This document shows positions 4,256-33,733 of a DNA stretch of 36,952 bases, piece by piece. The translations under genes were made by a program, and so were the position numbers. How positions within the stretch are numbered: position 1 is the first letter of the stretch; each line of letters begins with the position of its first letter. Under the pieces are notes generated by a model that saw only the letters and a program-made list of their open reading frames with translations, had not been told where the DNA came from and did no database searches. Source of the stretch: Gammaproteobacteria bacterium (lineage in GTDB: Bacteria; Pseudomonadota; Gammaproteobacteria; Ga0077554; Ga007554); assembly GCA_005240065.1 (NCBI GenBank), contig SBBG01000032.1:1-36952 (forward strand). The letters run 5' to 3'.

Positions 4256-4262
4256 CCCTTAT

Positions 4263-15920: not shown

Positions 15921-15969
15921 GCGGGGCGCGGGGGTGTGCCCTGCGTTTATTCATTTGAGAGAGGGGGAA

Positions 15970-17088: not shown

Positions 17089-17239
17089 GGGTACACCTGA
17101 AAATTCGCTGAAGCCGTGATGGCGGCGTTGGAAATGCGCTCAAAATGCGGGCCGGGAAGCGGCGGACCTCGTGTACACGCCGCTCTTTTACCCATTTCCG
17201 CCTTGCCCTCGCACCTTGATCGAATTTTTACGAGTGCCC
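17089..17239 (+). repeat. Family A interspersed palindromic element, copy 2 (long subtype)
   Basis: It begins GGGTACACCTGAAAATTCGC and ends GATCGAATTTTTACGAGTGCCC. It shares the GCTGAAGCCG(T/C)GATGGC and CGCCTTG segments with the other copies. It has the extra GGGCCGGGAAGCGG segment that defines the long subtype. The internal stem is imperfect. It lies between the porin terminator and the Uma2 gene. Confidence 0.8.
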
Positions 17240-17328
17240 TTATTGATGAGGCGCGTGGAGTTTGCCTGTCCCGCCGCTTTAGAGCTATGATGTTCCCCAA
17301 CCAATTTTGATCTGGAGCAGGCTGGATT

Positions 17329-17942: not shown

Positions 17943-18094
17943 GGTGATTCTAAAAATTCGCTGAAGCCGCGATGGCGGCGTTGGAAAGGCGCTCAAAATG
18001 CGGGGCCGGGAAGCGGTAGGCTCTGTGTACACTGCGCTTTTTCGCGCATTTCCGCCTTGCTCTTGCGCCTTGATCGAATTTTTAGAAGCGCCCC
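17943..18094 (+). repeat. Family A interspersed palindromic element, copy 3 (long subtype)
   Basis: It begins GGTGATTCTAAAAATTCGC and ends GATCGAATTTTTAGAAGCGC. Like copy 2 it carries the GGGCCGGGAAGCGG insertion. It stands directly upstream of the promoter of the cytochrome cluster and has the same orientation as copy 4 at the cluster's far end. Confidence 0.85.
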
Positions 18095-18143: not shown

Positions 18144-19007
18144 GTGGCAGAATTGAAAATAAATCGCCAAATACTATCGTTGCCTGGGAGAGGGCTCGTT
18201 GTCGGTGCATTGCTGCTGGTCGCGGCTGGTGCGGTGTTTTTCGCCGCCGATGGCGCGCGTGCGGGCATTTTCAACACCAAGCACAATCTCGGCAGCACCG
18301 GTCTGAACGCGGCCAGCCAGTTCAGCGGCACGCGGGAGATTTGCGTCTTCTGTCACACCCCTCATGGCGGCAACGAGGCTGCCGCGGTTCCATTGTGGAA
18401 CCGTACTCTTGATCCCAACGGCTTCCAGACTTACGACCAGATGGGGACGACCACGCTCGATGCCCACGTCGAGCAGATCGGTTCGGTGTCTCTGGCCTGC
18501 CTGTCCTGCCATGACGGCACCCAGGCGATGGATTCGCTGTTGAACGAACCCGGCTCGGGGCGGGTCTTTCCGGGCTTTTCGGGGGGCATCTGGAGCGGCC
18601 AGGCGGCGAGCGTCGGCGGCCGGATCGGTCCGCCGGGGGTCATCACCAATCTGGGCAAGGATTTGACCAATGACCACCCTGTAGGTATTCAATATGCAGG
18701 GGGCGGGTATTCGGCGTCCAACCCTTCCGGCCCTGGGGCGGACAAGGATTTCAATCAGGCCAATACGGCGGTTGTCGGTTCGGAGCGGGTATGGTGGGTG
18801 AATACTCCGGTGGAGGGCTCGCTGGCCTTTGAAAAAACGGATATGAAGCTCTATACCCGCATCGGCACGCGCGGCCGCTATGCCGGCGAGCCGCAGCCTT
18901 ACGTGGAATGTGCCTCGTGCCACGATCCGCATGTCGATTACAACCCGACGTTTTTGCGGATAGACCCCAAGGGCAGTGCGGTGTGCCTGACTTGTCATGC
19001 AAAATAG
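18144..19007 (+). CDS. Tetraheme c-type cytochrome
   Basis: The 287-residue protein has a signal sequence (hydrophobic residues 18-36, cleavage probably near ARA before GIFNTKHN). It has four CXXCH motifs with cysteines at 67, 119, 256 and 281. The arrangement ICVFCHTPHG, CLSCHDG, DLTNDHPVG, ECASCHDPH and CLTCH is that of doubled-CXXCH cytochromes, and it closely matches the N-terminal 300 residues of the 11-heme protein at 28166. The start is a GTG with AAGGA eight bases upstream. It overlaps the prolyl isomerase gene by 11 bases. It probably carries electrons in or across the envelope; exact location is unknown. Confidence 0.9.
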   Translation: MAELKINRQILSLPGRGLVVGALLLVAAGAVFFAADGARAGIFNTKHNLGSTGLNAASQFSGTREICVFCHTPHGGNEAAAVPLWNRTLDPNGFQTYDQMGTTTLDAHVEQIGSVSLACLSCHDGTQAMDSLLNEPGSGRVFPGFSGGIWSGQAASVGGRIGPPGVITNLGKDLTNDHPVGIQYAGGGYSASNPSGPGADKDFNQANTAVVGSERVWWVNTPVEGSLAFEKTDMKLYTRIGTRGRYAGEPQPYVECASCHDPHVDYNPTFLRIDPKGSAVCLTCHAK

Positions 19008-19983
19008 GAGTGGCCGTTTCGCCGCATTTGCTTTGATCGCTGGACTGATGGCGGGGGGCGCCGCCAGTGCGGGTGAAGGTGGCGTTGCGTCAGGCGTGCA
19101 GCAGCCCTTCGCCGTGGTCGGCGGCGAGGCGATCCCGATGGAGGCATATCAATCGGCGTTCCACGAGGGTGCGCGTCGCCGGTTTTTTCATGGCGCGCCC
19201 TCGCCCGAGCAGATGGCCGCCTGGCGGCGCGAGGTGGGCCAGGAATTGATCGACCGCGTGTTGCTGCGGCAGGAGGCGAAACGGCGCGGTTTGACGGCGG
19301 ATGAGGTGGCGGTGGCCGCCAAGCTGGTGCAATTAGAGGAGGGATTCCGCGAAAGCGCGCAGTGGCAGGCCGAGCGAGTGCAGGCGTTGCCGCGGTTGCG
19401 CGCCAGGCTGGAGGAAGGCGAGCTGCTGGAGCGTCTGGAGACCGAGGTGCGGCGCGTACCGGAGCCCAGCGCGGAAGAGGTGCTCAAGTATTACCAGACG
19501 CACCCCGGCAAGTTCACCGCGCCTGAGCGGACGAAGGTTTCCCTGATTCTGCTTAAGGTGGAGCCTTCCGCGCCGGTGGCGGCCTGGAAAGCGGCGGAAG
19601 AAGAGGCGGCGCGGCTGGTGGAGCGGTTGCGCCAAGGGGCGGACTTTGCCGATTTGGCGCGCTTGCATTCAGGCGACGCTTCGGCGGGAAAGGGTGGCGA
19701 TCTGGGCTATGTCCATCGGGGCATGTTGGCCAAGGAGGCGCAGCAGGCGCTCGATGGTCTCAAGCCGGGCGAGATTGCCGCGCCGCTGGTGTTGCTGCGC
19801 GGGGTAGCGATATTGCGCCTGGATGAGCGCATCGCGCCGGTGCTGAGCGATTTCGATGCGTCCCGTCAGCGGGCGCGCGATTTGCTGGCGAGGGAACGAG
19901 GGGGGATGGCATGGCAGGCGTTGATCGATCGATTGCGCAAGGAGACGCCGGTAGTTGTGAATGAGAAAGATGCGGCTCCGTGA
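18997..19983 (+). CDS. Parvulin-type peptidyl-prolyl cis-trans isomerase (SurA/PrsA-like)
   Basis: The 328-residue protein has a signal peptide (cleavage likely after ASA). It has an N-terminal chaperone-like helical region (LIDRVLLRQEAKRRGL is typical of SurA/PpiD) and one parvulin domain in residues of about 175-270. That domain shows RTKVSLILLKV, ADFADLARLHSGD, KGGDLGYVHRGML and GEIAAPLVL. It should assist folding of periplasmic or outer-membrane proteins. Its start lies inside the tetraheme cytochrome gene, so it is probably devoted to this cluster, for example to the beta-barrel encoded next or to the cytochromes. Confidence 0.92.
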   Translation: MQNRSGRFAAFALIAGLMAGGAASAGEGGVASGVQQPFAVVGGEAIPMEAYQSAFHEGARRRFFHGAPSPEQMAAWRREVGQELIDRVLLRQEAKRRGLTADEVAVAAKLVQLEEGFRESAQWQAERVQALPRLRARLEEGELLERLETEVRRVPEPSAEEVLKYYQTHPGKFTAPERTKVSLILLKVEPSAPVAAWKAAEEEAARLVERLRQGADFADLARLHSGDASAGKGGDLGYVHRGMLAKEAQQALDGLKPGEIAAPLVLLRGVAILRLDERIAPVLSDFDASRQRARDLLARERGGMAWQALIDRLRKETPVVVNEKDAAP

Positions 19984-20007
19984 GGACACGGGGCCGTCAG
20001 AACAAGT

Positions 20008-20133
20008 ATTAACCCGGCAATCAAATATAGATCGTCATTACCCGGTGTTGCGTAGTTTCGCAGGGTGCGTGAGACGCGCCCTACACATGGGAGAAAAGCC
20101 GGAAAAGTAGATGAATTTGATTGCCGGGTTAAT
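20008..20133. repeat. Element bounded by 19-bp perfect inverted repeats, containing a family B half copy
   Basis: ATTAACCCGGCAATCAAAT (20008-20026) and its exact reverse complement (20115-20133) bound a 126-base segment. Inside it, CAGGGTGCGTGAGACGCGCCCTAC (20061-20084, given here as arms AGGGTGCGT and GCGCCCT) is a short family B palindrome. It lies between the isomerase and barrel genes. It may be a small mobile element, or a large transcript hairpin that separates the first two genes from the rest. Confidence 0.7.
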
Positions 20134-20171
20134 TAACATTGTTTAATCAATAAAAAATTTTCGCTATTTGG

Positions 20172-22079
20172 GTGAGGGGCGCGCCGCTGCTGCGGTTGAC
20201 GATGCGAATGCCATACCGTATGTATATCGGCGGATCCGACGCCAGGCTGTGTGTGCTGGCGTTGCTCGTGTTCGCGTGGCCGGCGCGCGGCCTGGCGGTG
20301 ACGGTCGGGCCTGCCGAAGTAACCGGCAGCGTCGGCTACAACTATCGCGCGCTGAACGGGCCGGGAGACAACAAAACGGCCAGTAATCAGTTCCTCGTCA
20401 ATCTTCGTGCTAACTCCTATCTTTGGGAGCCTTGGCTTGCGACCGTCGAAGGCGGGGTGACCTTGACGCAGGATGCCACCGATCTCAAGAACACCAATCC
20501 CGCCAGTGGCGCCCGGAATACCGATACAAGCATTGTGACTGGCGAATTCAATCTCAACGTGTTGCCGCAAAGCCGCACGCCGTTCGGTCTGCGCTATCTG
20601 GCGAGCAACAGCCGTGTCGATGCCGGCCGGATCAGCAGCGCGCCGGTGATGTTCACCAATCTCGATTTCGACACCCGTCGCCTGGAGCTGCGGCAGTCCT
20701 ACCTCACCGAGCAGAATGACCGTTTTATGGTGCGCTATGATACATCGAGCTGGAGTTCCACCACCGATGGCAAGTACGACGATACGTTGTTTGGCGCGGA
20801 AGTCGATTTCCGGCGTCCCAAGCATAACCTGCTGGTCAAGCTGAGCCAGGGAACGACGGAGCATTCGCTGGCGAGCCTGCGCAACGAAAACCTGATTTTC
20901 GATCTGAGCCATTTCTATACCGCTTCGCCCGCCTTGCGCGTCGATACCAAGGCCAGTTATTACACGTTCGATCGTTCCTTCCGGGTAACCAGCGCCAGTG
21001 CCACCTACGGCACCAGCACCAGCGACATCGCGCAGCTTTCGAGCTTCCTATTTCTCCGCCCCGAGGGTGGACGCCTTTCGCTCAGTGGTGGCTTGCGTGC
21101 CTTCCGGCTGGAAGGCAAGACGGCTCTGGACAGCAACGATTCGCTCAATCTGAATGGCAATGCCGGGGCGTTTTATCAATACAATAAACGCTTGCGCTTC
21201 GATGGCAGTATCGCTGCCAACTACGCCGACAGCAGTAATATCGGAACCCGTACCACACGGCAGCAGGCGGGCGTGCTCTATCAATCGGATGTTGTCGATC
21301 TTTTTCAGGGTGGTGCGACCTGGCAGTGGTATGCCAATGCCTCGGCGGACAACCAGACCAATAAAACCGATCAGCCGGGCGCGAAGGGTGAGAGCCGCCA
21401 GTCTGCGTATGGCACATTGGCGCACAATGGGCAAAAAACGTGGTTCGCCAGCGAAACGTCTTCGATCAGACTGAGCTTGGGACAGTCCTTGAACGGTTTT
21501 TACCGTTTTGGTGGCGGCGAGACCATTACCACCCAGCAGGATCATCAGGGCACGCTGACCAATCGGCAGTTTTCCGGTATTTCCTCGGCTAACACCCGGC
21601 TGGATCATACCGGTACTCTGGCCTGGAATCAGTCAGCTGATGGAGGTAGTTCGAGCGCGATGCTGACGATGTCGGATTCGCGCAGCCTGTCCGATGCCAA
21701 GGACAGTCAGCAATTGGTCAATGTGCAGGTGATGCGCAGTCAGCCCATTACGGGTTCGAGTTTTTTGACCGGCAATCTGACCTTGCAGCAGGTACGGCTG
21801 GATTTTCCCGGCGCGGGGCTCGCCGCCAGTAATGTGACGACGGCGACCGGCCGGATCGATTACCAGCATTCCAATCTGCTCGGTATTGCGAACCTGCGTT
21901 TTTTGTCCAACCTGTTCATTTCCAGGGCGACTTCGCAGCAGGCGATCGACCGGGCCGAATGGGATAACCGGCTGGATTATGCGATCGGACTGCTGGATAC
22001 CAGCTTGAGCTTGCGTTTGATCCAGATCGACGGGCAAAATTCCAATCTGTTGATGTTCAGGGTTGCGCGACGGTTTTGA
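20172..22079 (+). CDS. Predicted outer-membrane beta-barrel protein of the cytochrome cluster
   Basis: The precursor is 635 residues, with a hydrophobic signal segment (LCVLALLVFAWPARGLA) before VTVGPAEVTG. The mature chain consists of repeated amphipathic strands with alternating polar and aromatic residues, such as NQFLVNLRANSYLW, FMVRYDTSSWSS and RVDTKASYYTFD. It ends in LLMFRVARRF with a C-terminal Phe, the usual BAM recognition signature. Its size is close to MtrB-type barrels (about 700 residues), but the N-terminal CXXC of MtrB is missing. I infer a barrel that could sheath cytochromes. The start is uncertain: GTG at 20172, or ATG at 20202, 20211 or 20220; none has a clear ribosome binding site. 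Confidence 0.8.
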   Translation: MRGAPLLRLTMRMPYRMYIGGSDARLCVLALLVFAWPARGLAVTVGPAEVTGSVGYNYRALNGPGDNKTASNQFLVNLRANSYLWEPWLATVEGGVTLTQDATDLKNTNPASGARNTDTSIVTGEFNLNVLPQSRTPFGLRYLASNSRVDAGRISSAPVMFTNLDFDTRRLELRQSYLTEQNDRFMVRYDTSSWSSTTDGKYDDTLFGAEVDFRRPKHNLLVKLSQGTTEHSLASLRNENLIFDLSHFYTASPALRVDTKASYYTFDRSFRVTSASATYGTSTSDIAQLSSFLFLRPEGGRLSLSGGLRAFRLEGKTALDSNDSLNLNGNAGAFYQYNKRLRFDGSIAANYADSSNIGTRTTRQQAGVLYQSDVVDLFQGGATWQWYANASADNQTNKTDQPGAKGESRQSAYGTLAHNGQKTWFASETSSIRLSLGQSLNGFYRFGGGETITTQQDHQGTLTNRQFSGISSANTRLDHTGTLAWNQSADGGSSSAMLTMSDSRSLSDAKDSQQLVNVQVMRSQPITGSSFLTGNLTLQQVRLDFPGAGLAASNVTTATGRIDYQHSNLLGIANLRFLSNLFISRATSQQAIDRAEWDNRLDYAIGLLDTSLSLRLIQIDGQNSNLLMFRVARRF

Positions 22080-22160
22080 TGGAATGTGTTAGAGTTCATG
22101 AAGAATAATCGGTAGAATTGTTATTTTATGGTTTGATAATCAAAACGGGAGGGTATGAGT

Positions 22161-22631
22161 ATGTTTGCTTTGAAAACTCGCCTTATGCTGCGTGCCGCAG
22201 TGATGGGGATCGTTGCATGGCTGGCGATATTGGCAATGCCGGCGCCGGCCCATGCGGAGTATGGCGATGTAGTGATCAACAACTTCTCCGACGCGGCGGG
22301 GATGAGACCGGCGGTATTCTCGCACTGGTTCCACCGTATCCGCTTTCGCTGCAAGGTCTGCCACGCCGATCTGGGGTTCCAGTTCAAGGCGGGCGGCAAC
22401 AAGATCAACATGGCCAAGATCATCGACGGCAAGTTCTGTGGCGCCTGCCATAACGGTGAAATCGCCTGGTCGGTGGAAAACTGCGGCATGTGTCATTCCG
22501 GCGTGCCGGGTTCGCCCACCCACTTCCATGGAAGCACGGTGCAAACCCTGGTGGCTCCGCCTTATCAGCCCCTGGGTGGTGCAGCGCCCGCCGCCGCGCC
22601 GCAGCAGGCCCCGGTTGCGCCCAAAAAGTGA
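22161..22631 (+). CDS. Triheme c7-type cytochrome, first copy
   Basis: This 156-residue protein has a signal peptide (cleavage after AHA before EYGDV). It has three CXXCH motifs with cysteines at 64, 93 and 108. The pattern FSHWFHRIRFRCKVCH, NKINMAKIIDGKFCGACH, CGMCH is that of c7-type triheme domains (the domain repeated in the Geobacter dodecaheme GSU1996). The C-terminus is a Pro/Ala tail. Two ATG codons compete; the one at 22161 is seven bases from GGGAGGG, the one at 22155 only one base, so I chose 22161. It probably shuttles electrons in the periplasm. Confidence 0.92.
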   Translation: MFALKTRLMLRAAVMGIVAWLAILAMPAPAHAEYGDVVINNFSDAAGMRPAVFSHWFHRIRFRCKVCHADLGFQFKAGGNKINMAKIIDGKFCGACHNGEIAWSVENCGMCHSGVPGSPTHFHGSTVQTLVAPPYQPLGGAAPAAAPQQAPVAPKK

Positions 22632-22650
22632 CAGATAGAGGAAAAAGAAC

Positions 22651-23388
22651 ATGAATCGTCAAACCAAAACTCTTTTTGTGACCTTTGCCTTGTCCCTGCT
22701 GCTGGCCGGTCCGGCGTGCAGCTCGCAGGCGCAGATGACGGCCCGCCCCGATGGTTCGGTGCCGGTGCAGGATTTGTCTTATGCGCCGAGCTACAAACCG
22801 GTCGACGAGGTCGCCCAGGCCGCGCCGCTGTTGCAGATCGCCGAGGTCTCGGATATCAACAGCTTCAATCGCAACCTGAAGAAGCGGCCGTTCCAGCTTC
22901 CTCCGGCGGAAGACGGTCTGCGTGATCCCGCCAACGAAGCCACTCACATCCTGGCGGCGCCCAAGCCGGCATTCGAAGGATTTCCCACTACCGAATTCGG
23001 CAATCGTGTCGATTGGGTGAAGACGCTGGAAGAAGGCAAGATCAGGCCGCGCTGGGACCGTGAAGACCCCGATGCCGAGCCGTTCGAGATGGATCTTGAT
23101 ATCGTGCGTCCGGTGAAGGCCTCCGTGCCCGATGTGGTGTTCCCGCACAAGCCGCATACCAAATGGCTGTTCTGCTCGAACTGCCATCCGGCGATCTTCA
23201 TTCCGCAAAAGGGCGCCAACCAGATCAACATGTCCGCCATTCTGCTCGGTCAGAAGTGCGGCGTGTGTCATGGCAAGGTGGCCTTCCCGATCACGACCAA
23301 GTCGTGCAAGAAGTGCCATTCCAAACCCAAGCCGGATGACTGGAAGCCGCCTTTGAGCGAGGCGACACTCAAGAATCCTTGGAAGTGA
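22651..23388 (+). CDS. Triheme c7-type cytochrome with N-terminal extension, second copy
   Basis: The 245-residue protein has three CXXCH motifs near its end (cysteines 175, 203 and 219) in the same c7 pattern as its neighbours: FPHKPHTKWLFCSNCH, NQINMSAILLGQKCGVCH, CKKCH. A heme-free region of about 130 residues precedes it, with LPPAEDGLRDPAN and VDWVKTLEEGKI, shared with the third copy but not the first. The signal segment ends LLLAGPACSSQA; this could be cleaved by signal peptidase I or be an atypical lipoprotein box. It follows the first copy by 19 bases. A strong hairpin lies downstream. Confidence 0.92.
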   Translation: MNRQTKTLFVTFALSLLLAGPACSSQAQMTARPDGSVPVQDLSYAPSYKPVDEVAQAAPLLQIAEVSDINSFNRNLKKRPFQLPPAEDGLRDPANEATHILAAPKPAFEGFPTTEFGNRVDWVKTLEEGKIRPRWDREDPDAEPFEMDLDIVRPVKASVPDVVFPHKPHTKWLFCSNCHPAIFIPQKGANQINMSAILLGQKCGVCHGKVAFPITTKSCKKCHSKPKPDDWKPPLSEATLKNPWK

Positions 23389-23401
23389 TCGCTAAATAGT
23401 G

Positions 23402-23439
23402 ATGCGGCGGAGCTGTTTTGGACGGCAGCTCCGCCGCAT
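23402..23439 (+). terminator. Strong GC-rich hairpin after the second triheme gene
   Basis: ATGCGGCGGAGCTG and CAGCTCCGCCGCAT form a perfect 14-bp stem around a 10-base loop. No U-tract follows, so it may stabilise or process the upstream mRNA rather than stop transcription fully. Confidence 0.55.
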
Positions 23440-23590
23440 TCATCTGATGGTCTGCAAGAAATTGTCTGAAAAAGCTGAGCGCGACCGTGGTGAGTAGGGG
23501 TATTTCTGTGCCATGGAAGGGCGGGTGGCAAACGCTCGTTGCACGCGTTGCAGTTTTTTCAAATAATTTCTTGGAGCAGCAAAGCAAGTT

Positions 23591-24916
23591 ATGACGGGAT
23601 TGTTCACAGATCGGCATGTTTTCGTAATTGTATCGATGATGTCTCTGTCTGTTTGGGGGTATTCGGGGGCTGCCTCGGCGGCTGGCGCGAACACGGAAAC
23701 CAAGTCATTCGTGGTGACCTCTGCCGAAAAAGACAGTACTCATCCCTTTTTTGGTCAAGGCAGCAAGATCGGTTTGCTTGTCGATGGCGTGCAGGGGAAA
23801 TCGATAGTGTTGACGCGGGGCATTGAATATACCTTCAATGTCAATACCGGCCCGCAGCACGACTTCTATTTCTCATCCAGTTCCGTCGGGCAGGGTGCCA
23901 GTACCATAACCGACGGAGTGACGGGTCAGTTCACCTATCGCGGCGCAGTGACGATCGCGCCCGGGGTATCCACGCCCGATGTCATTTATTATCAGTGCCG
24001 CAACCACAGAAACATGGGCGGCAAGATCCATGTTGTGGATAAAGGCAAAGCCCCGCCGGCCGATGCCCAGGCTGTGGTGCCCGCCACCACGGATAGCGAG
24101 GCTGCCCCCAAGGCGCCGGTCATTTCCCCGGCCGCCGCGGAGGCCCAGCTCAAGCAAAAGATAGATTTCGCCGGTTTGCTGGTGAGCAGTTCCAAGGGTG
24201 CGCAGCGTATCGCCGCGAGTGGCAATGCGCAGGCCAAGGAGATGCTTTCCCGGGCGCGTGATCATCTGGCGGCGGCGCAGAACATATTCAAGAGCGGCGA
24301 CATGACCAAGGCCCAGGGGGAGGTCGACGAAGCGCTGAGGCTGGCGAGCGCGGCCGGGCGTCTGGTGCCCGAATCGTCTCCCGACGCCAATGATCCGAAA
24401 GCCCGCCACAAGGAATTGCAGGATTCGATCAAGACGTTCGAGTTGTCCTATAAGCAGCATCAAGAGAAGCTCGGCTCGAAAAAGAGCGGCACTCTGGACG
24501 TGAAAAAATTCAAGGAGACGCTCGCCAAGGCGGAAGAACAGGCCAATGCCGGTCAATATGAAGAGGCGAACAAACTGCTCGCCAGCGCGCAGCGCACCAT
24601 CACCGGCGCGTTGAGCGCCTTGCTCAACGCGGAAACCGTGGTGTATGACAAAAGTTTCGCCACGCCCGCTGAGGAATACGAATATGAGCTGGCACGCTAC
24701 AAAAGCTATGAAGAGCTGATACCGTTGGCCTTTGAGCAAAAGAAACCACCGGCTTTCACCATCGAAAAGATGGATGAACTGTCGAAAAAAGCGAAGGAGT
24801 TGCAAGCGCAGGCGGAGAAGCTTGCCGCCAAGGGAGATCATTCTTCCGCGATCGGCGCGTTGCAGGAAGCCACCGTGCAGTTACAGAGGGCGTTGATGGT
24901 GGCGGGGGTGAATTGA
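23591..24916 (+). CDS. Cupredoxin-like domain fused to a helical coiled-coil region, exported
   Basis: The 441-residue protein has a signal peptide (cleavage near ASAAG). Residues 38-150 look like a cupredoxin with possible type 1 copper ligands: His90 in GPQHDFYF, then Cys136, His139 and Met142 in YYQCRNHRNMGG, a C-x2-H-x2-M loop as in amicyanin. After a Pro/Ala-rich linker (about 152-185) the rest is long charged helices with Lys, Glu, Ala and Gln, likely coiled coil. No heme motif is present. It sits between cytochrome genes, so a copper electron carrier on a stalk or scaffold is a reasonable inference. TTGGAGCAGC precedes the ATG. Confidence 0.85.
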   Translation: MTGLFTDRHVFVIVSMMSLSVWGYSGAASAAGANTETKSFVVTSAEKDSTHPFFGQGSKIGLLVDGVQGKSIVLTRGIEYTFNVNTGPQHDFYFSSSSVGQGASTITDGVTGQFTYRGAVTIAPGVSTPDVIYYQCRNHRNMGGKIHVVDKGKAPPADAQAVVPATTDSEAAPKAPVISPAAAEAQLKQKIDFAGLLVSSSKGAQRIAASGNAQAKEMLSRARDHLAAAQNIFKSGDMTKAQGEVDEALRLASAAGRLVPESSPDANDPKARHKELQDSIKTFELSYKQHQEKLGSKKSGTLDVKKFKETLAKAEEQANAGQYEEANKLLASAQRTITGALSALLNAETVVYDKSFATPAEEYEYELARYKSYEELIPLAFEQKKPPAFTIEKMDELSKKAKELQAQAEKLAAKGDHSSAIGALQEATVQLQRALMVAGVN

Positions 24917-24937
24917 AGGAAAGTTTCAACGCCAAAT

Positions 24938-24987
24938 GCAGGGTGCGTCTCACGCACTATCCGTGTGGTGCGTGAGACGCACCCTGC
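24938..24987. repeat. Family B interspersed palindrome, copy 5
   Basis: GCAGGGTGCGTCTCACGCAC and GTGCGTGAGACGCACCCTGC are near-perfect inverted arms. It lies between the cupredoxin gene and the third triheme gene. Confidence 0.85.
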
Positions 24988-25097
24988 GCTTGGGATACAT
25001 GATAGATATTTTGGCAAGGAATCCAACAGATTACTAAAGGGCGTCTCGGGGGAGGCGCTGCGGGAGAATAAGCCATTTTCTCCGGGAGTGGGTGACG

Positions 25098-25739
25098 ATG
25101 AACGAAAACAACGATCTCCGGTGGGCTCGTCTTCACGGGTATTCCGGCTGCGCAAATGAAAGGGGCGAGGCGTTCGCGCGCCTTATTCTGTCATTTGGCG
25201 TGCTCGTCATGCTCTGGTTGATGGCGGCCAACGCGCTGGCGGATGAGTTGATCTGGTCCAAGGGGCGCCATTTTCAGCTTCATGGCGAGGCCGTGCCGCT
25301 GGCGGAGGATGGCATCCGCGACCCCACCAATCCGGCCATCAAGTCCTTGCAGGATCCGGCCGAAGCCTTGGCGGACTTTCCCCGGGACTCCAAAGGAATT
25401 CTCGATTGGGTTAAGGTGCTCGATCAGGGGCTGATCGATCCGCGCAAAGGACTGCATGGCGAGGAGCAGATGTTCCCCGTCGATTTTGACATCATTTTCA
25501 AGAACACCGGTTCCATGCCGAATGTGCGCTTTCCGCACCGGCAGCATACTGAGTGGCTGACCTGCGCCAATTGTCATCCATTGATTTTCTTGCCTCAGAA
25601 GGGAGGTAATCCCGTCAACATGGCGGCCATCATCGAAGGCCGCTATTGTGGTGTGTGTCACGGTAAAGTCGCCTTCCCGCCAACCATGAACTGTGGCCGA
25701 TGCCATTCCGTACCGCGTCAATCCGCTGGCTTTCGCTGA
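25098..25739 (+). CDS. Triheme c7-type cytochrome with N-terminal extension, third copy
   Basis: The 213-residue protein repeats the plan of the second copy. It has LAEDGIRDPTN and LDWVKVLDQGLI in the N-terminal region, then the c7 triheme module with cysteines at 156, 184 and 199 (TCANCH, YCGVCH, CGRCH). The hydrophobic signal segment (LILSFGVLVMLWLMAANALA) lies behind an unusually long polar start. I chose the ATG at 25098 because GGGAG is nine bases upstream; the GTG at 25092 is too close. Its last 40 bases overlap the next gene. Confidence 0.9.
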   Translation: MNENNDLRWARLHGYSGCANERGEAFARLILSFGVLVMLWLMAANALADELIWSKGRHFQLHGEAVPLAEDGIRDPTNPAIKSLQDPAEALADFPRDSKGILDWVKVLDQGLIDPRKGLHGEEQMFPVDFDIIFKNTGSMPNVRFPHRQHTEWLTCANCHPLIFLPQKGGNPVNMAAIIEGRYCGVCHGKVAFPPTMNCGRCHSVPRQSAGFR

Positions 25740-27076
25740 CAGCGCTGAGCCTGTGCCTGGGGCTGGGGCAATACGGTTGCTCCGCGCCGGGGCCGAAACC
25801 GCTCCCGCCGTCTGCCGTGGCCGCACCGCAAGCGGGTCAACTGCAGCCGGCTGAGGCGATGCAAGCGCAGACAGCGGGAAGCATCCCATCCACACCGACG
25901 GAAACTCCGATGGATGAGGTGGTTGTTGGTGCGACACCACCCGCCGTGATGGCAGAGCCCGTGCCTTTGGCCGAGGGGCATGAGCAGGGCGTGCAAGAGG
26001 GATCGCCGTCGATGTCCGTTGAAGCGATCCCGGCGCAGGCTGTTACGGGTCGTCAGTTGGTGGAGCAGGGAATGGAAGCCGGTTCGGCGCCGCCGGTTGT
26101 CGGGGCAGCGCCGGAGGCGTCTGCGCAAGTGATCACGCAACCGTCCGAACAACAGAAAAGCGCTGAGGCGCAGTCCCCGGTGGTCCGGGAAGCGATCACC
26201 GTCTCAGCCACCGCCATGACGGCGCCTGGCGAGGTTCTGCTGCCGTTGGAGGCGGTGCGCGGCGGCGCCGAGGGGAATGCCGTGACTGGGGTTAGGCAGG
26301 TGCAATTCGTCCGGCCCATCTCGATCGCGGTGCGCGCGGGAAATTTGTTTGTGATGGACGCGGGGCAAGGCACGCTGTTCCGTTATCATCTCGCCACCAA
26401 GAGACTGTCGGCACTGCTGGATCTGCGCGGGGTGATAAGCGGTGACACGGCGGATCTTTATGTCGCCGGCGATCAGTCGCTTTACATCGCCGATACCTAT
26501 GGCGCGCGGGTGTTGCAATACGACCGTAAGGGACGGTTGTCGCGCACCTACAGCAACCGGCTCAACCTGGCGCGGCCGGTAGCTGTGATGGTGGATGAGC
26601 CGAGCGGCCGGGTATTTGTCGCGGATGCGTTTTACGATCACATTCTGGTGTTCGACAGCGCCGGAAACCTAGTCGCGTCGATGGGCGGGCGTGGCGCCGA
26701 TCCCGGACAGTTTCTCAATATCACAGCCATGGCGCAGGGGCCGGACGGATTTTATGTGACGGCGCGCATTGGCGAGCATGTTCAGGTGCTTGGCGAGGAT
26801 GGCCAGTACAATTATTCACTGCCACGGGAAGGTCTGATTTTTCCGACCGCCATCGCCGTCGATGCCGAGAATCGCGTCTTTGTCAGCGACTTCAGCGATC
26901 ATGCCATCAAAGTGTATGAGCGGGGACGTTTGGTGGGTCGTGCTGGGCATCCAGGAGGTGGATTGGGGCAGTTCAGGCATATCTCCGATTTGTGGATGGA
27001 TGAAGGGTTGCTGTACGTCGCCGATAGCTTGAACGGTCGTGTCCAGATCATGCGTGTGACATCCGAAAGCCGATGA
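25700..27076 (+). CDS. NHL-repeat beta-propeller protein with long Pro/Ala linker
   Basis: The 458-residue protein begins with a signal sequence ending LGLGQYGCSAP, possibly a non-canonical lipoprotein box. A low-complexity region rich in Pro, Ala, Glu and Gln covers about residues 30-185. Residues 195-458 form an NHL beta-propeller with repeats such as ISIAVRAGNLFVMD, LYIADTYGARVLQYD, VFVADAFYDHILVFD and VFVSDFSDHAIKVYE. NHL propellers bind proteins or ligands. NHL proteins are often encoded beside multiheme cytochromes in metal-respiring bacteria. The start overlaps the third triheme gene by 40 bases. Confidence 0.88.
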   Translation: MPFRTASIRWLSLTALSLCLGLGQYGCSAPGPKPLPPSAVAAPQAGQLQPAEAMQAQTAGSIPSTPTETPMDEVVVGATPPAVMAEPVPLAEGHEQGVQEGSPSMSVEAIPAQAVTGRQLVEQGMEAGSAPPVVGAAPEASAQVITQPSEQQKSAEAQSPVVREAITVSATAMTAPGEVLLPLEAVRGGAEGNAVTGVRQVQFVRPISIAVRAGNLFVMDAGQGTLFRYHLATKRLSALLDLRGVISGDTADLYVAGDQSLYIADTYGARVLQYDRKGRLSRTYSNRLNLARPVAVMVDEPSGRVFVADAFYDHILVFDSAGNLVASMGGRGADPGQFLNITAMAQGPDGFYVTARIGEHVQVLGEDGQYNYSLPREGLIFPTAIAVDAENRVFVSDFSDHAIKVYERGRLVGRAGHPGGGLGQFRHISDLWMDEGLLYVADSLNGRVQIMRVTSESR

Positions 27077-27086
27077 TGGAGTTGTC

Positions 27087-28169
27087 GTGAAGGTCGCTCG
27101 CCGAGGTTGGATTGGCCTGCTATTGCTGGCGGTCACGCTTCTGGCCGGCTGCGCCCCGACACAGACCGTGCTGCGCTATGAGGTGGAAACCAAACAGCCG
27201 GTGGTGTGGCCGCCCGCGCCGGAAATTCCTCGTTATCGTTATGTGGGCGAGCTGACGGGAGAGGAAAACATCCGCGCCGAGGGCGGCAGCGGACTGGGCG
27301 ACACCGCCGTGAAGGCGCTGAAATGGCTGGTGGGATTGTTTTCCGAGCGGCCTGAGGCGGTGATATTGCAGCGTCCACAGGCCGGAGCGGCCGGTGAAGA
27401 CGGCAGGATTTATGTCACCGATGTCAGCCGCCAGGCGGTATATGTATTCGACGAGAAGGCCGGTAAGCTGCTGGTGTGGGATAAGGCGCTGGAACATGCC
27501 CGCTTCGAAGCGCCGATCGGCATCGCACCGGGAGCGAACGGCGAAGTCCTGGTGGCAGATGCTTCGCTCGGTTTGGTAACGCGCCTGAACCGGGATGGCA
27601 TACCGGTGGGCAGTTTCGGCAAGGAGGTGCTGAAGCATCCGACCGGCTTGGCGCGCGATCCCGCGCGGGGCAGAATTTATGTGGCCGACGCCCATGCGCA
27701 CCAGATCAAGGTGTTCGACGATACGGGGGCCCTCGTCGACACCTTTGGTAAGGGAGAGCGCAGCGAAGCGCCGGGGGAGTTCAATTCTCCGACGCATCTG
27801 GCTTTTGCCGATGGCCGGTTGTATGTGTCGGATACGCTGAACGCGCGTATCCAGGTGTTGGCGCCGGAGGATGGCAAGGCGTTGCGGGTATTTGGCCGGC
27901 GCGGGCTGTTCGTGGGCGATCTGACCCGTCCCAAGGGCGTGGCGGTGGATCCGGCCGGTAACGTCTATGTGGTGGAATCCTATTACGATCATTTGCTAGT
28001 ATTTAACGCTGAGGGTGAGCTGTTGTTGCCGATCGGCGGCGGAGGCAGCGGGATCGGTGAGTTTTACCTGCCAGCCGGGGTGTGGGGCGATGGGCGTGGG
28101 CGGATCTATGTGGCCGATATGTTCAACGGCCGCGTGGTGATTTTTGAATATCTGGGGGAGGGAACGTGA
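27087..28169 (+). CDS. NHL-repeat beta-propeller lipoprotein
   Basis: The 360-residue protein has a classical lipoprotein signal (VTLLAGC, lipidated Cys22). It has about six NHL blades: GRIYVTDVSRQAVYVFD, GEVLVADASLGLVTRL, GRIYVADAHAHQIKVFD, GRLYVSDTLNARIQVL, GNVYVVESYYDHLLVF and GRIYVADMFNGRVVIF. It is paralogous to the gene just upstream but lacks the Pro/Ala linker. The start is a GTG at 27087. Its TGA overlaps the GTG of the 11-heme gene (GTGA), so the two are coupled and may act together, for example as a surface or outer-membrane partner of the cytochrome. Confidence 0.92.
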   Translation: MKVARRGWIGLLLLAVTLLAGCAPTQTVLRYEVETKQPVVWPPAPEIPRYRYVGELTGEENIRAEGGSGLGDTAVKALKWLVGLFSERPEAVILQRPQAGAAGEDGRIYVTDVSRQAVYVFDEKAGKLLVWDKALEHARFEAPIGIAPGANGEVLVADASLGLVTRLNRDGIPVGSFGKEVLKHPTGLARDPARGRIYVADAHAHQIKVFDDTGALVDTFGKGERSEAPGEFNSPTHLAFADGRLYVSDTLNARIQVLAPEDGKALRVFGRRGLFVGDLTRPKGVAVDPAGNVYVVESYYDHLLVFNAEGELLLPIGGGGSGIGEFYLPAGVWGDGRGRIYVADMFNGRVVIFEYLGEGT

Positions 28170-30904
28170 TCAAGAGGCTGTTCGCAAAACTGCCGCGTGG
28201 GCGTGATGCGCGGCCGGGCGATGTCCGTTCTCCCCGGCTGACGGCGGCCCGTTTCATTTTGCGGGCGATTTCCAGGTGGCGTGCAATCGCTGCCATGCTG
28301 CTATGCGCGGCTGGGTTGCTGCTGGGCGCGGTGAGCGTCCAGGCCGAGCGCGTGGCCGATATCCGCAACACCAAGCATAATTTTTCGTCCACCATTCTCC
28401 CGGTGTTGCCCGAAGGGGCGACACGCGAGGCCCATGCGGTGAACGAGTCGCAGATCTGCGCCTTTTGTCATACCCCGCACGGCGCGACCAACGAACCGAG
28501 AACGCCGATCTGGAATCGCAAGCTGTCGGGTGCGACCTATATTCCCTATTCTTCGACCTCGATCGAGGCCACGGATCTCGGTCAGCCGACCGGTAAGTCC
28601 AAGCTCTGTTTGTCGTGCCATGATGGCACGCTCGCCCTGGGTTCGGTCAATGTGCTCAACCGTGTCGAACGGCCGGTCATCGATTTCACCGGCCCCGGCA
28701 TCAGGTCAGACGGCAAGATCCCCGAAGGGCGCGGCCAGCACACCGGTTTCACGCGCCGCCTCGGCACCGATCTGAGCAACGACCATCCGATTTCCTTCAC
28801 TTTCGACAGTTCCCAGGCGCACCGCGATGGCGAATTGTACGATCCGGCGAGGGTGGGTCACCTGTCGACCCGCACGCCGGGTGTGAAGCCGACGTTGCCG
28901 CTCGAGGACAACAAGGTCGAATGCGTGGCTTGCCATGATCCCCATCTGCGCGACACATCGGGCGACAACATCAAATTCCTGCGGGTCAATCGTTTCCAGC
29001 AGCAGCCACCCACCGACAAGGTGTTCAACGAAAAGAACGATCTCATTTGCCTGGGCTGCCATGATAAGGCGGGTTGGGTCGGTTCGGCGCATGCCCATCC
29101 GGCGGTGGCCAACGAGCGTTACGCCGATGCCGCAGCCAAGCTGCGTGATTTCCCCAGGGGTTTGCCGGTGTGGCAGGCGGCTTGCCTCAATTGTCATGAT
29201 CCTCATACTGTGCAGGGATCGCGCCGGCTTCTGCGCGAAGGCACCGATGGCCCGACCATGACGACGGCCGATGGCGCCAAGTTCAAACAGGGTGGCAGGC
29301 CGGCTATCGAGGAAGTCTGTTACGCCTGCCATTCGACGGATGGCAATGTCCTGCAGGGTCAAGGGCTCAAGCCCGGTTTCGAGGTGCCGGACATCAAGAC
29401 CGATTTCACCACGCCCGGCTGGCGGCACATGCCGATCACCAGCATGGAGCAGCCGGCGGGGCGGGAGCGGCATGATATAGGGTCGGCCACGCCGGACCAG
29501 GCCAATGGCATCCAGAGCGGCAAGGATTTCGTCGAGTCGCCCGCCAACCTGGGCAAGGCATCGAAAGTGAACCGGCTGGGTGAGGCGGGGGGCTTGCAGA
29601 ATCGCCATGCTGAGTGTACGGACTGCCACAATCCGCACCGCGTGACAAAGAACCGCTTGTTCAACGCCGACACCTCGATACCGGATTCCGAGGGAACGCA
29701 CAACCATACCGCAGCACAGATCGCCAACAATCCGGAGCGTCATCACACCAATATCGCCTCGGGCGTGCTGCGCGGTATCACCGGCGTGGAGCCGCGCGGC
29801 TGGCCGAGCACCGAATTCGGCAGCGAGCCGACGGTCTTCGACCTGAAGCGTGGCGATCCGGGCGTGGGCGGCAGCACCGATGTGAGCGCGCCGTATGTGA
29901 CGCGCGAGTACCAGATCTGCATGAAGTGCCATTCCAACTATGGCTTCGACAAGCCTCCCATGCTGGGCTACTACCCAGGCGGCACTCCGCCGGGGACGAA
30001 CGCGATGTATCAGTACACCAACATGGGCATGGAATATCAGTCGCCCGACGACCATAAAGGCGAGGGTACGTCGCCCACTCCCAGCGGCGCGTTCAAGGGC
30101 GTGGCGCCGGGGCAGGGCTATAGCGTGGATTTTCAGACCGATAATCACCGTTCATGGCATCCGGTGCTGAAGGATACCGGGCGCACCATCGACGTGCGCC
30201 GTGTGGACAGTCCTAACATCTGGCGCGAGCCCTTCAATGCCGGTGTGGGCATCCAGACCATGTACTGCACCGATTGCCATGGTTCGACCACCGGCCCCGG
30301 CACGGCGGTTCCGGATGGCGGCGAGCAGGGCAATGTCTGGGGGCCGCACGGTTCGAGCAGCGACTTCCTGTTGAAGGGAGGTTGGGATGACAATACTGGC
30401 GAGAACCGTGTCAATGACATCTGCTTCAAGTGTCACAATTATGACTACTACGGCAAGAAATTCCCGCAGGGTCCGATCGCCGACAACCAGACACTCAAGA
30501 GCGGCTTTGCGCGCAACCCCAACGACGGGGCAGGGTTCGGCTGTCTGGCCGCGCAACGGGTCAACCTTCATACCGGTCATGCCCAGGTGGTGACGAATTT
30601 CCGCTGCACCTATTGCCACATCGCCGTGCCGCATGGCTGGAAGAATAAGAACTTCCTGGTCAACCTCAACGATGTCGGTCTGGAGGGCGGATTGCCGACG
30701 AGCACCCAGGTGCGTAACAACACTACCGCGCGCTACTACAACGGGCCTTACTATAATGGTTCGGTGCTGAAAGTGGCGAATTTCCGGCGCAGTGGCGAAT
30801 GGATGCCGCAAAACTGCGGATCGGTGGGTGTGCCGGGCAATGGTATCCGTGGTATTAGCTGGATGAACGGCAGCGGTGGTGAGACGTGCAGTAACTTGCC
30901 ATGA
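28166..30904 (+). CDS. Large 11-heme c-type cytochrome
   Basis: The 912-residue protein carries eleven CXXCH motifs with first cysteines at residues 98, 148, 253, 295, 340, 385, 484, 585, 701, 753 and 814. The first four form a module (CAFCHTPHG, CLSCHDG, DLSNDHPI, ECVACHDPH, CLGCH) that is paralogous to the tetraheme protein at 18144. Heme-free stretches of about 100 residues occur at 385-484, 485-585 and 585-701. The signal segment (MLLCAAGLLLGAVSVQA) follows a basic n-region of more than 40 residues, which is long. No outer lipid anchor is visible. It overlaps the NHL lipoprotein and ResB genes by four bases each. I infer an extracytoplasmic, possibly cell-surface, electron carrier. Confidence 0.92.
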   Translation: MIKRLFAKLPRGRDARPGDVRSPRLTAARFILRAISRWRAIAAMLLCAAGLLLGAVSVQAERVADIRNTKHNFSSTILPVLPEGATREAHAVNESQICAFCHTPHGATNEPRTPIWNRKLSGATYIPYSSTSIEATDLGQPTGKSKLCLSCHDGTLALGSVNVLNRVERPVIDFTGPGIRSDGKIPEGRGQHTGFTRRLGTDLSNDHPISFTFDSSQAHRDGELYDPARVGHLSTRTPGVKPTLPLEDNKVECVACHDPHLRDTSGDNIKFLRVNRFQQQPPTDKVFNEKNDLICLGCHDKAGWVGSAHAHPAVANERYADAAAKLRDFPRGLPVWQAACLNCHDPHTVQGSRRLLREGTDGPTMTTADGAKFKQGGRPAIEEVCYACHSTDGNVLQGQGLKPGFEVPDIKTDFTTPGWRHMPITSMEQPAGRERHDIGSATPDQANGIQSGKDFVESPANLGKASKVNRLGEAGGLQNRHAECTDCHNPHRVTKNRLFNADTSIPDSEGTHNHTAAQIANNPERHHTNIASGVLRGITGVEPRGWPSTEFGSEPTVFDLKRGDPGVGGSTDVSAPYVTREYQICMKCHSNYGFDKPPMLGYYPGGTPPGTNAMYQYTNMGMEYQSPDDHKGEGTSPTPSGAFKGVAPGQGYSVDFQTDNHRSWHPVLKDTGRTIDVRRVDSPNIWREPFNAGVGIQTMYCTDCHGSTTGPGTAVPDGGEQGNVWGPHGSSSDFLLKGGWDDNTGENRVNDICFKCHNYDYYGKKFPQGPIADNQTLKSGFARNPNDGAGFGCLAAQRVNLHTGHAQVVTNFRCTYCHIAVPHGWKNKNFLVNLNDVGLEGGLPTSTQVRNNTTARYYNGPYYNGSVLKVANFRRSGEWMPQNCGSVGVPGNGIRGISWMNGSGGETCSNLP

Positions 30905-31920
30905 AAAAGTTTCTCCGCGCCTTGGGTTCCATCCGCCTGGCATTGGTGGGTATGGTGCTGCTGGGAGTGGGCGCGGCGCTGAGTTACGATAATCCGGCGG
31001 GCACCCCGGTCTGGGTGTTGGTCGCGCCGCTTGCCTTGCTGGCCATCAATCTGTTCTGCGCCATTGCCACCAACCCGCGTATCAACCGCCGTCCGGGGCT
31101 GTTGGTATTTCATCTCGGGTTGTTCGCCATTATCGTGCTGGCGGGCATCGGCCGGCTCACTCATCTCGATGGGCAACTGGAAATCACCGAAGGCAGTGCT
31201 TTTTCTCCTGATGAACTGACCGAAGTAAAGAAAGGCCCGTTTCACGGTGATGGTCTGAGCAAGGTGGCTTTTATCCAGGGAAGCTACACGGTGGAGTATA
31301 ATGCCGGCATGGTGCGCGGATTGACCCACAGTCAGGTATTGATCCCCGACGGGCGTGGCGGAATGATATCCAGGGTGGTGGGCGATGATCGCCCGCTGGT
31401 GCTGGAGGGATATCGTTTTTATACGACTTACAACAAGGGCTTTGCCCCGGTGCTGACTTGGATGCCCGATCAGGGCGAGGCGATGACAGGAACGATTCAC
31501 ATGCCTTCCTACCCCCTGTTCGATTACAAGCAAGACAGCAACTGGACGCCGCCAGGCGGCAAGCCGCTCAGATTCTGGTTGCGACTCGATACCGGTTTGC
31601 GTCAGGACGCCGCCTGGTTGCTTGATGGCAAGAAGGCCAGCGGCGTATTGGTGGTGAATGCGGGAGAGCGGCGGGTCGAACTCCTGCCGGGGCAATCGCT
31701 GCGGCTGGAGGGCGGCAGTCTGCGCTACGAGCGCCTGACGAGCTGGATGGGTTACAAGGTGTTTTATGATCCCACCCTGCACTGGCTATTCGTCGCGTCG
31801 GTGGTGGCGATCATGGGATTGGGCGCGCATTTCTGGCGCAAATTCGGGGTGCGCATGCAGAGGACTCACGAGTCTTCCATAACCGATACCCCTGTAGCGT
31901 CGAGCGGGAGGATGCCATGA
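30901..31920 (+). CDS. resB: System II cytochrome c maturation protein ResB (CcsB/Ccs1)
   Basis: The 339-residue protein has the ResB plan: membrane helices near residues 11-31, 36-55 and 64-83, a large periplasmic domain, and a last helix near 295-317. Opening FLRALGSIRLALVGMVLLG, HLGLFAIIVLAGIGRL and the GYRFYTTYNKG and YKVFYDPTLHW segments are family-typical. With CcsA it delivers heme to apocytochromes in the periplasm. The start ATG overlaps the stop of the 11-heme gene (ATGA), which implies service to this cluster. Confidence 0.92.
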   Translation: MKKFLRALGSIRLALVGMVLLGVGAALSYDNPAGTPVWVLVAPLALLAINLFCAIATNPRINRRPGLLVFHLGLFAIIVLAGIGRLTHLDGQLEITEGSAFSPDELTEVKKGPFHGDGLSKVAFIQGSYTVEYNAGMVRGLTHSQVLIPDGRGGMISRVVGDDRPLVLEGYRFYTTYNKGFAPVLTWMPDQGEAMTGTIHMPSYPLFDYKQDSNWTPPGGKPLRFWLRLDTGLRQDAAWLLDGKKASGVLVVNAGERRVELLPGQSLRLEGGSLRYERLTSWMGYKVFYDPTLHWLFVASVVAIMGLGAHFWRKFGVRMQRTHESSITDTPVASSGRMP

Positions 31921-32825
31921 ATACCTTCGGCGATATCATTGGCCGGGCCACGGAATTGCCCTGGCTGTGGGCCGGACTGGTTGCTTATGGTCTGGCGACC
32001 ATCGTTGTCATTGCGGGTGTGATGAGGATGCCTCACCGCGCCGCCGGCGCGATGGCGGCCCATGACTCTTATGTCCCGAGCGAAAAAGCGCGCACCTGGC
32101 ACGGTCATGAAAAGTTGGTGCTGGTGCTGGTGTCCAGCGGTGTGGCGCTGATCGCAATCGCTCTGGCCGAACGCTGGGTACGCATCGGGCACGGACCTTT
32201 CGTCAATCTCTTCGAACTGCTGATGAGCCAGTTGTTCAGTCTGGGGTTGATATTCGCCATTACCTATTGGCGTGTGCCGGCGATGCGCGCCAGCGCGGTG
32301 GTGGCCTTGCCGCTGATCTGGGTGCTGGGAATATGGGTGTTGACGTTGCAGCCCGTCGATACGCCGCTGCCGCCCACCTACCATAATGACTGGCTGTGGG
32401 CGCATGTCGGCCTGGGTAAGATCTTTCTCTCGCTGTGCCTGATCGGCACGGGCCTGGCCGGGGTGATCCTGTTGCGGCATAGTGAGCGCTTCGCGCCGTG
32501 GTTCCGCCACATGCCCGCGAACGAGGTGCTGGACGGTCTGGCGTGGCGTTTCATGCTGCTGGCGTTCATCTTTCACAGCCTGATGCTGGTGGCGGGCGCG
32601 GTGTGGGCGCAAGACGCCTGGGGGCGCTACTGGTCATGGGATGCGCTGGAAACCTCGTCCTTTCTCAATTGGCTGCTGCTCGGCATGGGCCTGCATGCCC
32701 GCTTCACCTACCGTGTGCCGCTGCGCGCCGGGGCGGTGTTGATCATCGCGGTGTTCGTGTTCGCTTTCTTCACCTACTTCGGCACGCCGTTTTACAGCGA
32801 AGCCGCGCACAAGGGCGTGATATGA
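31917..32825 (+). CDS. ccsA: System II cytochrome c synthetase subunit CcsA (ResC)
   Basis: The 302-residue inner-membrane protein has about eight helices and the heme-handling WWD motif WGRYWSWD at residues 235-242. Nearby histidines 163 (WAHVGLGK) and 220 (FIFHSLML) are the likely heme ligands. It exports heme and, with ResB, ligates it to CXXCH cysteines. It overlaps ResB and the following TPR gene by four bases each. Confidence 0.95.
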   Translation: MNTFGDIIGRATELPWLWAGLVAYGLATIVVIAGVMRMPHRAAGAMAAHDSYVPSEKARTWHGHEKLVLVLVSSGVALIAIALAERWVRIGHGPFVNLFELLMSQLFSLGLIFAITYWRVPAMRASAVVALPLIWVLGIWVLTLQPVDTPLPPTYHNDWLWAHVGLGKIFLSLCLIGTGLAGVILLRHSERFAPWFRHMPANEVLDGLAWRFMLLAFIFHSLMLVAGAVWAQDAWGRYWSWDALETSSFLNWLLLGMGLHARFTYRVPLRAGAVLIIAVFVFAFFTYFGTPFYSEAAHKGVI

Positions 32826-33493
32826 CGACGTCTATGGACGCCGTTGTCAATCGCGGGCCGGTCGAAGCCGCAACGTCGATTATCTCGCTGCTGCTGGTGT
32901 TGGGTATGATCGCGCTGATTGTCGGGGTGACGCGCAATCCCGCGTTTGTCCCTCCCCCGCCCGCTCCCGAGGTGATGGCCGATCCGCAAAAGGATCCGCA
33001 AGGGCACGCCCGGCAGGCGCGCATGGCGGAGATCAAGCGCCGTTTCGAGCAGGCGGTGGTGATGCTGCACGCCAGGCAATACGAACACGCCGCGACGGCC
33101 TTGCACCGCGTTTTGCAGCTTTCACCGAACCTGGTGGACGCCCATGTCAACATGGGCTACGCCTTGCTGGGGCTGAAGCGCTACAAGGAGGCGGAAGGCT
33201 TCTTCAACACCGCCACCAATCTGCGTCCCTATCAGGCCAATGCCTATTGGGGCCTGGCAGTGACCCTGGAACAACAGGGCGATCTGCCCGGCGCGCTGGG
33301 GGCGATGCGCACCTACCTGCACCTGGCGCCGCCGGAGGATCCCTACGCACGCAAGGCCCGCAGCGCGCTGTGGGAGTGGGAGAACGCCCTGGCGCGCGGC
33401 CCGCTGCCCAAGGACGAGGCGGAATTCCTGGAAAGAAAAGGCAAGGAATGGACCGAGCGCAACAATCCGGCGGTGGATATGCCTGGACGATAA
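32822..33493 (+). CDS. Membrane-anchored TPR protein
   Basis: The 223-residue protein has one N-terminal membrane helix (about residues 17-38), a Pro-rich linker (FVPPPPAPE) and roughly three tetratricopeptide repeats, including QYEHAATALHRVLQLSPN, VDAHVNMGYALLGLKRYKEA and ANAYWGLAVTLEQQGD. TPR proteins of this layout often hold apocytochrome c, as CcmI does in System I, so a chaperone role in cytochrome assembly is a fair inference. I chose the ATG at 32822, which overlaps the CcsA stop; a much longer open frame from 32498 reads through ccsA and is not used. It is the last gene of the cluster. Confidence 0.85.
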   Translation: MTTSMDAVVNRGPVEAATSIISLLLVLGMIALIVGVTRNPAFVPPPPAPEVMADPQKDPQGHARQARMAEIKRRFEQAVVMLHARQYEHAATALHRVLQLSPNLVDAHVNMGYALLGLKRYKEAEGFFNTATNLRPYQANAYWGLAVTLEQQGDLPGALGAMRTYLHLAPPEDPYARKARSALWEWENALARGPLPKDEAEFLERKGKEWTERNNPAVDMPGR

Positions 33494-33634
33494 GGGTACC
33501 TCCAAAAATCCGCTGAAGCCGCGATGGCTGCGTTGGAAATGCGCTCAAAATGCTCAGGTACTCCGTGTACACTCCGCTTTTGAGCGCATTTCCGCCTTGC
33601 CCTCGCGCCTTGATCGAATTTTTAGAGGTGCCCA
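33494..33634 (+). repeat. Family A interspersed palindromic element, copy 4 (short subtype)
   Basis: It begins GGGTACCTCCAAAAATCCGC one base after the TPR stop codon and ends GAATTTTTAGAGGTGCCC. The internal perfect 16-bp stem GGAAATGCGCTCAAAA/TTTTGAGCGCATTTCC is the same as in copy 1. It has the same orientation as copy 3 at the other end of the cytochrome cluster. Confidence 0.88.
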
Positions 33635-33649
33635 TAAGAGAATTCACCT

Positions 33650-33706: not shown

Positions 33707-33733
33707 CAAGTTGTCAGGTTGGAAAGGACCAAT

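Follow-up and report, generated by a model that had tools for sequence, protein, structure and literature searches.

Between positions 18144 and 33493, the 36,952-nt stretch of gammaproteobacterial DNA analyzed here (the window) carries a run of 13 genes, about 15 kb long and entirely on the forward strand, that constitutes a Uet (undecaheme electron transfer) cluster. The uetABCDEFGHIJ genes were published for cathode-oxidizing Tenderiales (Candidatus Tenderia electrophaga; Eddie et al. 2022) and the cluster was subsequently found in Gallionella and Leptothrix; available descriptions comprise a tetraheme cytochrome (A), a peptidyl-prolyl isomerase (PPIase; B), a barrel (C), trihemes (D, E, and G), NHL proteins (H and I), and an undecaheme cytochrome (J), and a review that uses the same ten-gene name gives the role as extracellular electron uptake. 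In accessible accounts of Ca. Tenderia, three trihemes, a gene annotated as TPR that separates the second triheme from the third, and the undecaheme cytochrome bear the tags Tel_16515–16545, a sequence of tags that fits the gene order of the window. The ten genes A–J of the window (4-heme, PPIase, barrel, 3-heme, 3-heme, F, 3-heme, NHL, NHL, 11-heme) stand in the published order, and it is on these two grounds, the matching content and the matching order, that the run is identified as Uet. To what has been described we add that UetA and the N-terminal module of UetJ belong to the family of the nanowire cytochrome OmcE, and that the full 13-gene run, including its heme-attachment genes, is widely conserved.

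The run opens with uetA (18144–19007), encoding an exported tetraheme c-type cytochrome with four CXXCH motifs, and uetB (18997–19983), encoding a periplasmic SurA/PrsA-like parvulin PPIase (Rotamase, 4e-16; SurA_N_3; SurA structures, E=8e-12). These are followed by uetC (20172–22079), whose 635-aa product is a predicted outer-membrane β-barrel. Three triheme c7-type cytochromes are encoded by uetD (22155–22631; TIGR04257, 3e-18; PDB entries 3OV0, 3OUE, and 1RWJ, E from 4e-45 to 3e-15), uetE (22651–23388; TIGR04257, 3.6e-17; with an N-terminal extension), and uetG (25092–25739; TIGR04257, 1.4e-18); between the last two lies uetF (23591–24916), whose product of 441 aa joins a cupredoxin-like domain (PF25489, 1.3e-7) to a helical region. 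Two NHL β-propellers come next, UetH (25700–27076; NHL, 9e-15) with a Pro/Ala-rich N-terminal linker and UetI (27087–28169; NHL, 8e-27), a predicted lipoprotein with an LAGC lipobox, and then UetJ (28166–30904), an exported undecaheme cytochrome with 11 CXXCH motifs. Behind uetJ stand genes for a ResB/CcsB-like System II cytochrome c maturation protein (30901–31920; PF05140, 2.5e-10), a CcsA-like heme-handling protein (31917–32825; PF01578, 4.6e-25), and a membrane-anchored TPR protein (32822–33493; TPR_2, 7e-14) with weak CcmH/CycH-like similarity (TPR_CcmH_CycH, 5e-5, under the cutoff). The scan against Pfam and NCBIfam also placed Paired_CXXCH in UetA and UetJ and nanowire_3heme/Cytochrome_C7 in UetD, UetE, and UetG.

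The five cytochromes hold 4, 3, 3, 3, and 11 CXXCH motifs, 24 in total. Shuffled versions of the 11-heme protein contained a mean of 0.03 motifs and never more than two (2,000 shuffles), and shuffled versions of the tetraheme a mean of 0.006. Adjacent genes overlap by 4–40 nt at six junctions (A/B, G/H, I/J, J/ResB, ResB/CcsA, and CcsA/TPR), so that the run resembles a translationally coupled operon; promoter and terminator scans returned chance-level results. A preliminary description of this DNA had listed these same elements (five multiheme cytochromes with 24 motifs, a barrel, a parvulin, two NHL propellers, a cupredoxin fusion, and ResB/CcsA/TPR) as a one-strand run with many overlaps, and each was found where it had been placed, with the recounted motifs far above the shuffled expectation. 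Its general idea of trans-envelope electron transfer likewise agrees with the Uet literature; its view that the combination looks unusual does not stand, the combination being neither new nor rare but already published as Uet and widespread, and the OmcE-family identity set out below had escaped it. Its inference of a complete electron route goes further than these results, as the barrel may export or anchor a filament instead of housing hemes.

The same description had called for a search for the gene order across genomes. In most of the loci read within the class, the order A-B-C-D-E-F-G-H-I-J-ResB-CcsA-TPR is preserved at roughly 30–80% identity, indicating that the parts travel together; some of them are missing from a few loci that are truncated by contig ends or belong to divergent lineages. 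Within the window's family, the cluster is missing from a single genome, an incomplete one, and the closest named records are gammaproteobacterial metagenome-assembled genomes (MAGs) such as Ga0077554. A barrel profile detected UetC orthologs in 37 of the 369 class genomes sampled, and UetJ was found in 24 of 399 sampled across the phylum, suggesting a widespread system and not the curiosity of one order, and a plasmid search with UetJ gave zero matches. At the phylum level the usual order is [NHL]-A-B-C-D-E-F1-F2-G-D'-I-J-ResB-CcsA, in which UetF is represented by two genes and an extra triheme occupies the UetH position. Among the class loci the barrel evolves fastest (median identity 38%) and UetD slowest (76%), with UetA at 71%; a blastp match to UetB was missing in three loci, and one locus without a barrel match has a 597-aa barrel-like reading frame in that position.

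UetA is related to the subunit of the OmcE filament of Geobacter sulfurreducens (7TFS; phmmer E=3.8e-23) and to 9YUQ (E=1.5e-26), with approximately 35–39% identity across about 195 residues, and differs from both by an insert of about 40 residues ahead of the third heme motif. Residues 55–261 of UetJ also match OmcE (E=1.2e-18), dividing this protein into an N-terminal OmcE/UetA-like module with four hemes and a separate C-terminal region with seven. Across 34 UetA proteins, 33 UetJ modules, OmcE (its sequence taken from the pairwise search alignments with UetA and UetJ), and 9YUQ, the four CXXCH motifs and four distal histidines are invariant, such that all eight of the eight ligand histidines are kept, and not one histidine beyond those eight is common to the whole set. 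Descriptions of the OmcE and OmcS filaments indicate that one heme takes a ligand histidine from the neighboring subunit; the helical rise of the OmcE type is about 34 Å. This intersubunit bridge is established for the solved filaments only; UetA and UetJ carry histidines at the matching positions and might be bridged likewise. With all eight retained, the ligand set for such a polymer is complete in UetA and again at the UetJ N-terminus. In a tree of UetA, the UetJ modules, and OmcE, UetA forms one group and the UetJ modules another, and long branches hide their order relative to OmcE. No statement of a link between OmcE and Uet was found in the available literature, although the founding paper may contain one.

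The same genome encodes, away from the window (locus L073, 6426–8404, contig C6), a second OmcE-family cytochrome, which has five CXXCH motifs, a replaced distal histidine beside the first heme, and an NHL-propeller gene directly after it. Weaker matches of this kind are present in six sister genomes. The cytochrome and NHL pair may represent a second filament-type system.

Gene content, gene order, conservation, OmcE homology, and the conserved heme ligands are the observations behind the reading that we consider likely, namely that the Uet operon specifies an OmcE-type UetA filament, a UetJ link at its base, and UetC at the outer membrane, and serves net electron uptake for autotrophy. Judged from the protein sequences, UetA would be exported and would probably polymerize into an extracellular heme filament; its membership in the OmcE family makes it probable that the system assembles a heme-protein wire and feeds it. 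Electrons from outside would pass through the UetA filament or a surface array to UetJ, which, as an adapter, would probably join the base of the filament to the outer membrane by means of its UetA-like module. UetC would be the outer-membrane site of export, anchoring, and/or electron passage, and electrons crossing there would be handed to UetD, UetE, and UetG and the copper protein UetF in the periplasm and on to the inner-membrane chain. The SurA-like UetB and the propellers UetH and UetI are predicted to aid folding and assembly, and ResB, CcsA, and the TPR protein to attach heme. The most likely net direction would be uptake from an outside donor, whether Fe(II), a mineral, or a cathode, for autotrophy. 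Indeed, the host genome contains a RuBisCO of form-I-like sequence, three matches to COX1 (heme-copper oxidase), and no MtrA/DmsE-family decaheme (TIGR03508; best score genome-wide 22 bits against a cutoff of 192), a combination consistent with an autotroph that uses oxygen and, like Tenderia, takes up electrons.

Several points weigh against this reading. An OmcE-like sequence is by itself no proof of polymerization; what cytochrome filaments do physiologically is disputed in the available literature (PMC11077965); and AlphaFold2 gave no usable model of UetJ with 20 relatives (predicted local distance difference test [pLDDT] score 33). The direction of flow could also be outward, since accessible reports cite undecaheme cytochromes for a manganese-reducing Dechloromonas and multiheme conduits are reversible in principle, so that the same module would discharge electrons to Mn/Fe oxides at low oxygen. 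We regard this as improbable, given that the best-documented Uet hosts, as available accounts describe them, oxidize cathodes or iron and that RuBisCO and heme-copper oxidases are encoded here. Far less probable still is a periplasmic cluster for nitrogen or sulfur respiration: multiheme cytochromes do serve nitrite and tetrathionate reduction as well, and weak NrfH- and DmsE-type matches were seen, but these lie far under their cutoffs, catalytic subunits of such enzymes are absent from the cluster, and both the barrel and the OmcE-family subunits argue for an outward-facing system.

The part played by UetC is where explanations diverge most. The protein returned zero sequence matches in Pfam, NCBIfam, or the PDB; its AlphaFold2 model, built from 22 sequences, has about 28 β-strands (mean pLDDT 83.7; predicted template modeling score 0.62), which bears out the preliminary designation of this 635-aa protein as a barrel. 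Its translation probably starts downstream of the GTG at 20172. The top Foldseek matches are large outer-membrane barrels, with MtrB (6R2Q_B) at rank 3 and a template modeling (TM) score of 0.37; many large barrels match at low TM scores (0.2–0.4), so that the fold search gives no preference to MtrB. The CXXC typical of MtrB is missing from UetC, where the sole cysteine lies in the signal peptide region. The earlier claims that the barrel lacks this motif, that an MtrA-type decaheme is wanting, and that the cluster is hence not a standard Mtr/Mto system are upheld by these results and, for the last, by the Uet literature.

The usual description of Uet, which the available literature groups with porin–multiheme complexes, would make UetC and UetJ (or the trihemes) an MtrCAB-like chain of hemes running through the barrel and UetA a monomeric surface cytochrome. 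The size of the barrel, the presence of MtrB among its fold matches, and a heme number in UetJ sufficient to span the membrane favor this arrangement; nevertheless, UetA and the UetJ N-module fall in a filament-forming family with every ligand kept, the trihemes match short c7 domains, and neither the MtrB-type CXXC nor MtrA is present. We therefore hold it to be possible but doubtful. UetC may instead serve the filament as its exporter or anchor and contain no chain of hemes; the barrel may be an export or anchor channel, an electron conduit, or both.

Taken to its full extent, the alternative to a heme-filled barrel is that UetC, UetB, UetH, and UetI are mainly a filament assembly and export machine, with electrons moving through the filament itself or some other conduit. 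A Geobacter block of eight genes beside omcS, GSU2500–2493, is said to include genes for a PPIase, for channel-like proteins, and for a β-propeller. Available reports link this block to OmcS nanowire maturation and secretion. By analogy, UetB, UetC, and UetH/UetI would be counterparts of its PPIase, channel, and propeller proteins; the OmcE-family paralog elsewhere in the host genome, which adjoins an NHL gene, is in keeping with this. The likeness to the Geobacter block is an analogy, however, and the strict linkage of UetJ and the three trihemes to the barrel suggests that electrons flow there too, such that we judge a mainly assembly-related role rather unlikely.

Returning to the filament, base link, and outer-membrane site that we favor, its most complete version, a self-contained nanowire module in which UetA forms the filament, UetJ is a fused terminal subunit whose OmcE-like module plugs the filament into the cell through the intersubunit histidine, and UetC, UetB, and the NHL proteins export and anchor it, is put forward only tentatively. 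If it is correct, OmcE-type wires would be a common means by which aerobic lithoautotrophic Pseudomonadota take up electrons, and would not be confined to metal reducers. The route by which electrons enter neutrophilic iron- and cathode-oxidizing bacteria is an open question that the tie between Uet and OmcE addresses, and this tie makes sense of the co-carried PPIase, propellers, and dedicated heme-attachment genes.

On the periplasmic side, c7 domains are short and, in Geobacter, periplasmic. The triheme domain of UetD matches the c7 multidomain cytochromes of Geobacter (3OV0, 3OUE, and 1RWJ) with E-values down to 4e-45, the window trihemes differing in being single domains and not several fused. 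Available accounts count the Ca. Tenderia trihemes among that organism's most strongly expressed genes on a cathode. The cupredoxin-like copper ligands at the N-terminus of UetF (H...C-x2-H-x2-M) are retained by 22 of the 23 proteins aligned, and the remaining one is truncated; they are present in window-type orthologs and were not found in the split F1/F2 proteins of other loci, suggesting a lineage-specific gain of the cupredoxin domain. The same genome encodes, away from the cluster, a fourth c7 triheme, which resembles UetG (L074, 6269–6841, contig C136). In two members of the class (L110, 8265–9221; L109), the gene at the UetE position has four CXXCH motifs, and the L110 protein has a monoheme cytochrome-c-like N-terminus ahead of its triheme domain, a fusion that may hint at a periplasmic redox partner of UetE.

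The genes at the 3' end of the run are of the System II (CcsBA) type, with a ResB/CcsB protein (PF05140) next to a CcsA protein (PF01578) whose WWD-type motif reads WGRYWSWDALE; no CcsX-type thioredoxin was seen in the 13-gene run. Elsewhere in the genome, one contig has reading frames of 689 and 267 aa for System I (Ccm)-like proteins, and there is a further PF01578 protein, which makes the cluster's own maturation genes look dedicated.

Outside the run, two tandem Porin_4 porins lie upstream (14637–17022), and porin genes are likewise found upstream of the Uet run in three named MAGs. Directly after the run is a 432-aa propeller-like protein (33719–35017; recognized by repeat pattern only, no Pfam match), whose position is not conserved in the other loci examined. 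An intergenic repeat, imperfectly palindromic and about 150 nt long, occurs at 4104–4263, 17097–17242, 17950–18093, and 33489–33648, two copies closely flanking the Uet run. We considered these flanking copies as the mark of a mobile element carrying the cluster and rejected this, there being dozens of matches genome-wide; the repeat is an interspersed element resembling miniature inverted-repeat transposable elements or repetitive extragenic palindromes. A second, short palindromic repeat (GTAGGGTGCG...CGCACCCTAC) is present at 10670–10721, 14364–14415, and 24937–24988, the last copy between uetF and uetG. At other loci, formylglycine/SUMF-like C-termini were recognized by eye near oxidase genes (L114, 2702–3910; L074, 625–1653), the L074 region sitting behind CXXCH-type motifs.

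Among known systems, the cluster is closest to Uet of Tenderia, with which it shares heme counts (4, 3, 3, 3, and 11), the PPIase, the barrel, both NHL proteins, a gene that separates the second triheme from the third, and the order of all of these. It differs in its host, which belongs to another lineage, in a UetF with a recognizable cupredoxin domain where the Tenderia gene is annotated TPR, and in that the conserved run takes in ResB/CcsA/TPR, a feature absent from the available published accounts. MtrCAB/MtoAB, PCC3, and OetABI share with the window the pairing of a barrel and multiheme cytochromes in one cluster; the run differs from this group in having neither an MtrA-type decaheme nor a barrel CXXC, no protein with more than 20 hemes (its largest has 11), and no PCC3-type inner-membrane protein. 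Finally, the OmcS-companion block GSU2500–2493 differs in that OmcS is a hexaheme whereas UetA is a tetraheme, yet it presents the same arrangement of a nanowire-type cytochrome beside genes for its maturation and export.

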